Translations under genes and position numbers: made by a program | Assembly: GCA_013112725.1 (NCBI GenBank) | Contig: JABFFZ010000002.1 | Location: 62,001-126,000 of the forward strand | Origin: Chloroflexota bacterium | GTDB lineage: Bacteria; Chloroflexota; Anaerolineae; Promineifilales; Promineifilaceae | Direction: 5' to 3' | Length of the DNA stretch: 64,000 nt | The notes under the pieces: model-generated | The model's database searches: none | The model's input: only the letters and a program-made list of their open reading frames with translations | What the model was told of the DNA's origin: nothing | Shown: one piece after another, positions 14,796-17,151 of the stretch | How positions within the stretch are numbered: the first letter of the stretch is position 1 | Layout of the letters: each line of letters opens with the position of its first letter

Positions 14796-15044
14796 ATGGC
14801 CGTAAAACAGTGTTACATCTGCAATAAAGACGCCATCGCCAGACGGCAATACGGCGGGGACGGGTTAGCCGAAGGTGAAATTTGCCCGGTATGTTATCAG
14901 CCAACCTGCCGCTTTCATCTGGGTACGGTGCGCTGGCGCTGGCGCAGCAGCGGCGAACTGGATTCCGCCCAGGTGTGTAAGGAGTGTCTGCGCAGCTACC
15001 GTCACCGGGACTGGGACAAATATAATCGGGATTGGATAACGTAA
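14796..15044 (+). CDS. Small zinc-ribbon-like protein, unknown function
   Basis: 82 residues with three CxxC pairs: CYIC near the start, CPVC near residue 30 followed by CRFH, and CKEC near 61. This layout suggests one or two structural zinc sites. The rest is rich in Arg and Trp (VRWRWRSS, SYRHRDWDKYNRDW), which would suit nucleic acid or protein contacts. No family was recognised. It follows a repeat hairpin and is convergent with the selenoprotein gene. Confidence 0.65.
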   Translation: MAVKQCYICNKDAIARRQYGGDGLAEGEICPVCYQPTCRFHLGTVRWRWRSSGELDSAQVCKECLRSYRHRDWDKYNRDWIT

Positions 15045-15050
15045 ACGGTA

Positions 15051-15114
15051 GGGGCGAGGCAGTTGGGTACAGCCTTGTCTTGCCTGACAATTTTTTCCCC
15101 AACTGCCTCGCCCC
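15051..15114. repeat. 17-base inverted repeat between convergent genes
   Basis: GGGGCGAGGCAGTTGGG (15051-15067) and its exact reverse complement (15098-15114) enclose about 30 bases that include TTTTTT. It sits exactly between two convergent genes and could end both transcripts. Confidence 0.75.
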
Positions 15115-15116
15115 TC

Positions 15117-15389
15117 TTAATCGCGGGGGTATGGTTCTACGTCGGGGCCGATGTATTCTTTGAAGAGTTCCAGGATTTCGCCAGGGTTGGCGTGCCGTTT
15201 GAGCGTTTTTTTGGAATAGAGTGTTTCGCCATCCACTTTGAACTCAAACGCGCCACCGGAACCGGTGATAAAGGTGAATTGTTCGATAATGTGCTGGTAA
15301 TTGGTGAGGATTTCGTCCGCCACACGGACGGCACGGGCGCTGTAGTCTCAGGGGACGCAATATTCGAGGGTAAGGGTGTATTTGTTCAT
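15117..15389 (-). CDS. SelW/Rdx-family selenoprotein with in-frame TGA
   Basis: Reading from ATG 15389 (preceded by GGAGG) gives MNKYTLTLEYCVP, then TGA (15350-15348), then DYSARAVRVADEILTN and on to FTFITGSGGAFEFKVDG. The TGA falls exactly at the U of the CxxU redox motif of the Rdx (SelW/SelT/SelH) family, and the frame is open on both sides for a 90-residue product, a normal size. A 6-bp stem CGTCCG/CGGACG with loop TGTGG starts 17 bases after the TGA, with the loop 23 bases after it, within the range described for bacterial SECIS elements, and has a G in the first two loop positions. The alternative is a nonsense mutation, with translation restarting at GTG 15323 and losing the redox motif. 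The gene implies selenocysteine machinery elsewhere. Confidence 0.82.
15314..15330 (-). promoter_or_regulatory. Candidate bacterial SECIS hairpin
   Basis: On the minus strand CGTCCG-TGTGG-CGGACG forms a short stem-loop downstream of the selenocysteine TGA at the distance expected for SelB binding. The coding sequence here (ARAVRVADE) fits the protein family, so it is constrained by both functions. Confidence 0.5.
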
Positions 15390-15452
15390 ATGACCTCCAT
15401 TGTAACGCGATTTTCCAAATCGCGTCACGGATTTTAACGGCCGTATCCCATC

Positions 15453-16134: not shown

Positions 16135-17151
16135 ATGTCTCAACTCAACAGCGAAGATCGGGCACAACTGCGTGAATTCCTCAGCGAGCGTTTTAGTCTG
16201 GACGAGATGAAAACGCTCTGTTTTGACCTGGGGCTGGACTATGAGGAGTTTCCCCACGCCACCAAAAGCGAATTCTCGCGGGAACTGATTGTCTACTTTC
16301 AACGGCATAACAAACTGGGCTGCCTGGTAGCGGAGATGATTAAAGCGCGACCCGATCCCTGGCTGACGCAACTATTGGCGCAAGTGTCAAGCTGCCGGCC
16401 GAATGAAAAAGTCCAGATTGTCCTCTCCAATGACAAGATCAAGAGCCGCCCGGATTTGAAGCAAAAGCTGGCCGAACTGCTGGGTATTTCGGCCGATGAG
16501 GTGATGATCCTGGCGACGGCGCCGGGCAGCGTGAAGGTGTTGGTGGGTGTGCCGCCCAGGGAAGCAGACAAACTGGCGGTGCTCTCGTTACCGTACCAAC
16601 TACACGAGTATGAGATTGTGTCGGTGACGCCTTATGTCAAGCTACCAACGGGGGCACAGCAGGGCTGGCGCACGGCCGTGACCCGCACCACGCTTGTCAC
16701 AACAACGGCCGCCACCACCGGCGGCGGGCTTCCCCTTGTCGTCAAAATCCTCATCGGTCTGCTGATTCTGGCGGGCATGATGGCCGCCGGGGTATTGATT
16801 GTGGGCAACCGCCAGCCAGAATTGACCGTCTACAACCAATGCCCCAACCCACTGCCCATACCCGCGCCAGATGCTATCAAATCCGTCCTGTCTTTGCCGG
16901 AGGCTATTCCCCCAGGTGGCAGTATGAATGTACCGGTACTCGTCGGCGCCTATGAACTGTTTGTTTCCCCAGATGGGGTGATGGTTTTGGTATTACCCCG
17001 GTCCATACCGGGCGTTGGATTGCGTGAGGTGCAGTTGGGGCAAATGGACAGGGGCACGGCCGTGACGTTGAACGGCCGTCCGCTCACCCCGCCACAACGT
17101 TTCCAAATCGAATCCGGCCAAAACTACGAACTGGTAATTTGTGCGCCATGA
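16135..17151 (+). CDS. Effector-associated (death-like) domain membrane protein
   Basis: 338 residues. Residues about 8-75 match the bacterial effector-associated domain pattern: FSLDEMKTLCFDLGLDYEEF, then KSEFSRELIVYFQRHNKLG and the closing ARPDPW. These domains recruit effectors or proteases in counter-invader and programmed-death systems. A second alpha/beta-like segment (about 90-165) follows, then one membrane span (LVVKILIGLLILAGMMAAGV, about 203-225) and an outer beta-rich domain. No effector gene with a matching domain is adjacent. It has no promoter of its own that I can see and starts 58 bases after the T-box terminator, so its expression probably depends on leader read-through. It separates the leader from leuS. 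Confidence 0.72.
   Translation: MSQLNSEDRAQLREFLSERFSLDEMKTLCFDLGLDYEEFPHATKSEFSRELIVYFQRHNKLGCLVAEMIKARPDPWLTQLLAQVSSCRPNEKVQIVLSNDKIKSRPDLKQKLAELLGISADEVMILATAPGSVKVLVGVPPREADKLAVLSLPYQLHEYEIVSVTPYVKLPTGAQQGWRTAVTRTTLVTTTAATTGGGLPLVVKILIGLLILAGMMAAGVLIVGNRQPELTVYNQCPNPLPIPAPDAIKSVLSLPEAIPPGGSMNVPVLVGAYELFVSPDGVMVLVLPRSIPGVGLREVQLGQMDRGTAVTLNGRPLTPPQRFQIESGQNYELVICAP

Follow-up and report, generated by a model that had tools for sequence, protein, structure and literature searches.

On the minus strand of the window (by which we mean the whole stretch of DNA analysed, 64,000 nucleotides), a frame runs from ATG 15389 to TAA 15117, and its translation meets a single internal stop, a TGA at codon 14. 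Conceptual translation through this codon gives the 90-residue product MNKYTLTLEYCVPUDYSARAVRVADEILTNYQHIIEQFTFITGSGGAFEFKVDGETLYSKKTLKRHANPGEILELFKEYIGPDVEPYPRD. The TGA falls on the U of the motif CVPU, a codon at which Cys homologues have TGC or TGT. A GGAGGT hexamer ends 3 nucleotides upstream of the ATG, and most relatives also have a GGAG-type site ahead of the start. An earlier note, made from the letters of the DNA, had described a frame broken only by a TGA, this TGA as the U of a CxxU motif, and a Shine-Dalgarno site before the ATG; our analysis bears out all three. It also reproduces the headless annotation that the note had anticipated, since ordinary ORF calling (table 11) returns a 68-residue ORF with start GTG 15323 (15323..15117). 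Automatic annotation of the gene would lose its first quarter, and the present analysis corrects this truncated call.

Table 1. Coordinates of the putative selenoprotein gene and of its associated elements in the window
Feature	Position	Strand	Description
SelW-like (Rdx family) selenoprotein gene, predicted	15117..15389	-	90 residues, Sec at position 14, stop TAA; basis: Pfam, TIGR02174 and the single internal TGA
Predicted Sec UGA codon, U of CxxU (CVPU)	15348..15350	-	TGA in the Rdx genes of the family except one Cys paralogue
Shine-Dalgarno site GGAGGT	15393..15398	-	From the sequence; GGAG-like site in most relatives
Bacterial SECIS hairpin (predicted)	15317..15331	-	Stem CCGUC/GGCGG (CCGTC 15331..15327, GGCGG 15321..15317; 5 bp), loop CGUGU (CGTGT in the DNA; 5 nt), G at loop position 2; begins 16 nt past the TGA, 21 nt from UGA to loop
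Hairpin of the earlier note, competing register of the SECIS segment	15314..15330	-	CGUCCG/CGGACG: CGTCCG(15330..15325)-TGTGG-CGGACG(15319..15314)

In profile searches, the read-through protein exceeds the curated cut-offs of both Pfam Rdx (PF10262; 57.7 bits, cut-off 22.6) and NCBIfam TIGR02174 (SelT/SelW/SelH; 45.3 bits, cut-off 34.2), in agreement with the SelW/Rdx assignment proposed in the earlier note. The best NCBIfam score comes from the model for epsilonproteobacterial SelW, NF041051 (SelTWH_Campy), yet at 76.4 bits it stays under that model's cut-off of 88, so that the protein is not a member of this equivalog. Sequence matches extend to solved Rdx proteins in the PDB, some of them deposited as SelT/SelW/SelH or as selenoprotein W-related. 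The gene resembles bacterial SelW-like selenoproteins (PF10262, TIGR02174) in its CxxU motif at the N terminus, whose second redox position is a UGA predicted to encode Sec, and in the bacterial SECIS element predicted downstream; it differs from them in host lineage only (uncultured Anaerolineae-type Chloroflexota), and we found no feature outside the known family. A whole-genome search located no Rdx gene other than this one, and Rdx matches in a plasmid collection were all distant (<60% identity).

The segment following the TGA can form a hairpin. The folding energy of the gene alone is no better than that of shuffled sequences (z 0.04), and codon shuffling gives a z of about 0 (p about 0.48); judged from one sequence, the hairpin could therefore be due to chance. 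As single-sequence energy is uninformative, the case for a SECIS element rests on comparison. We aligned 59 distinct Sec sequences by anchoring them on the UGA, with position 0 at its U, so that stem positions 19-23 face positions 29-33. The full stem is present in 51 of them (36 of the 39 from the same taxonomic family) and loop position 2 is a G in all 59. The pairs vary among relatives: the combinations seen include C-G, U-A and G-C for the second pair, G-C and A-U for the third, and C-G, U-G and U-A for the fourth. Judging from the different families where they occur, and not from a tree, these changes probably arose in separate lineages. When codons were re-dealt among the sequences sharing an amino acid in each column (2,000 synonymous shuffles), full stems numbered 41.8 on average and no shuffle reached 51, although the resulting p-value is optimistic because this procedure does not preserve relatedness. 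Sliding the 3' arm left no full stem at all, and the hairpin is absent from all eight Cys homologues inspected for it.

These comparisons support the earlier proposal of a SECIS-type hairpin just downstream of the UGA, which proves conserved and covarying, but they call for a different pairing. The 6-bp stem-loop then reported 17 bases past the TGA is present in the sequence as described; its register, however, is complete in only 12 of the 59 distinct Sec sequences, against 51 for CCGUC/GGCGG, and we rejected it. Bacterial SECIS elements are expected to have a stem of 4-16 bp, a loop of 3-9 nt with a G in its first two positions, a UGA-to-loop distance of 16-37 nt and a minimum free energy of at most -7.5 kcal/mol (PMC13188914). 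The supported hairpin fits this consensus in stem (5 bp), loop (5 nt, with GU at positions 2-3) and spacing (21 nt). An energy of -11.3 kcal/mol also passes, but this value belongs to the competing register, which the folding program favours. The alignment further provides a set of SECIS elements from Chloroflexota that is supported by covariation.

How is the TGA distributed among relatives? An Rdx match was found in 43 of the 52 genomes of the same taxonomic family, and each of these 43 has a copy with one TGA at the U position; the named close relatives are Chloroflexi/Anaerolineae MAGs. One of the 43 genomes also has a Cys (TGT) paralogue (L058, on G425:C48), which stands beside the Sec copy and lacks the SECIS hairpin. 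In a wider sample of the phylum, 186 of 400 genomes have Rdx and, among the matches listed, genes contain either no in-frame stop or one TGA, never TAA or TAG. The comparison with Cys homologues suggested in the earlier note thus shows relatives that keep the TGA or carry Cys at codon 14. Unrelated stops in close relatives, which the same note held would refute a selenoprotein, were also looked for, and the TGA is the same in every Rdx-bearing genome of the family. In a hand tally of the phylum sample, which covers the matches listed and does not give full totals, a strong selA match accompanies 94 of 95 TGA-type genomes and is absent from 12 of 43 Cys-only genomes; the one TGA-type exception, G329, shows a weak selA match only and has a completeness of 77%. 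After the TGA, synonymous codon changes exceed non-synonymous ones (8 versus 1 in the nearest relative), while the 13 codons before it offer change counts too small to be judged alone. The upstream start, the Shine-Dalgarno site and the N-terminal codons are kept in relatives.

A nonsense mutation or a sequencing error in a Cys-type Rdx gene could in principle produce such a frame, given that TGA is one base from the Cys codons TGC and TGT and that a Cys paralogue does occur once in the family. However, the same TGA is found in every other independently assembled Rdx-bearing genome of the family, so it is not an isolated assembly error, and it is widespread in the phylum, with no TAA or TAG in its place among the matches listed; moreover, the frame past the TGA is conserved and the hairpin shows covariation. 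The conservation of the TGA together with the hairpin already refutes this explanation, to which we attach hardly any probability. Equally improbable is a true product that would start at GTG 15323 and contain no Sec. Table 11 does give the 68-residue ORF as a normal open frame, but its product would lack both features that define the family, namely the first strand and the CxxU motif, and the conservation upstream of this ORF, from the Shine-Dalgarno site to the N-terminal codons, speaks for the longer frame.

The host genome is a MAG of 5.5 Mb in 158 contigs, 83% complete. The search for selA, selB, selC and selD recommended in the earlier note retrieved all four, with selB split between two contig ends. 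The tRNA-Sec (69 bits over the Rfam cut-off) is called tRNA-SeC with anticodon TCA by ARAGORN, SelA scores 562.6 bits and SelD 378.9 bits. The selD gene (L095, at G000:C31:48301-49233) itself has one in-frame TGA, close to its N terminus, with a strong hairpin of 7 bp downstream, GGCCAGG-GGA-CCTGGCC, and is a second selenoprotein gene in this genome. Besides the unremarkable single-sequence folding energy, two points count against the Sec reading: selB is seen as two contig pieces, neither of them intact, and the MAG is 83% complete. The N-terminal part (348 residues) is cut by the end of contig C127; the C-terminal part, 261 residues that include the SelB winged-helix domain, is likewise cut by the end of contig C34. 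This is the pattern expected of an assembly break within one gene, and the two pieces probably belong to a single selB. The finding as a whole points to UGA being decoded as selenocysteine in this genome. Reassignment of UGA (to Trp or Gly, for instance) or read-through by a near-cognate tRNA, formally possible for any in-frame UGA, is extremely unlikely here, with the UGA exactly at the Cys position of homologues, the full Sec machinery in the genome, a hairpin specific to UGA-type genes, and TGA acting as a normal stop in other genes of the window.

Selenocysteine insertion is the only reading we considered that fits all the evidence, and the gene almost certainly encodes a SelW/Rdx-family selenoprotein in which SelB and the hairpin would direct Sec to the UGA at codon 14. 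The ribosome would meet this UGA early in the 90-residue frame. SelA would make Sec-tRNA(Sec) using selenophosphate from SelD, and the hairpin, with a loop that begins 22 nt past the UGA, would recruit SelB carrying the Sec-tRNA(Sec); selenocysteine would then be inserted and translation would run on to the TAA. The predicted product would adopt the thioredoxin-like Rdx fold and, with its CxxU redox pair, would be expected to act as a thiol/selenol oxidoreductase.

The gene is a further predicted SelW/Rdx selenoprotein from an uncultured Chloroflexota MAG, and the family itself is well known. SelW-like selenoproteins were described in bacteria some two decades ago and belong, in marine samples, to the most abundant selenoproteins (PMC1794560, PMC2398784). 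Genome annotation also missed the SelW genes of epsilonproteobacteria (PMC4607533). Since both the proteins and the annotation misses have been reported before, the finding is correct but ordinary. A 2006 survey listed only three selenoproteins in Chloroflexi (PMC1794560), which makes the wide spread seen here useful, though not surprising. We see an even chance that Sec-type SelW-like proteins have in Chloroflexota a major reservoir that is under-documented, where many families of the phylum would have kept the Sec form together with a compact SECIS of 5 bp, and where Cys copies would have arisen next to the Sec form or in its place, in some cases in genomes that lack selA.

The neighbourhood of the gene, with a 3-hydroxyacyl-CoA dehydrogenase, an 82-aa ORF and LeuRS, is kept in relatives. 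The 82-aa ORF (14796..15044, plus strand) is Cys-rich, has no Pfam match and is about 60-96% conserved beside the selenoprotein gene in family members. Straight after the selenoprotein stop, and before this convergent ORF, lies a perfect 17-bp inverted repeat (GGGGCGAGGCAGTTGGG; 15051..15114). Three further sites in the genome have full or near full-length copies of its 68-nt unit, 75-84% identical, and a fourth site has a partial copy. It is a small dispersed palindromic repeat, possibly with a role as a terminator. An Rfam search of the window returned two tRNA-Ala only. Between tRNA-Ala and leuS, an ORF present in some same-genus relatives (16135..17151, plus strand) contains the effector-associated domain EAD7, which belongs to a type that takes its name from putative conflict or defence systems.
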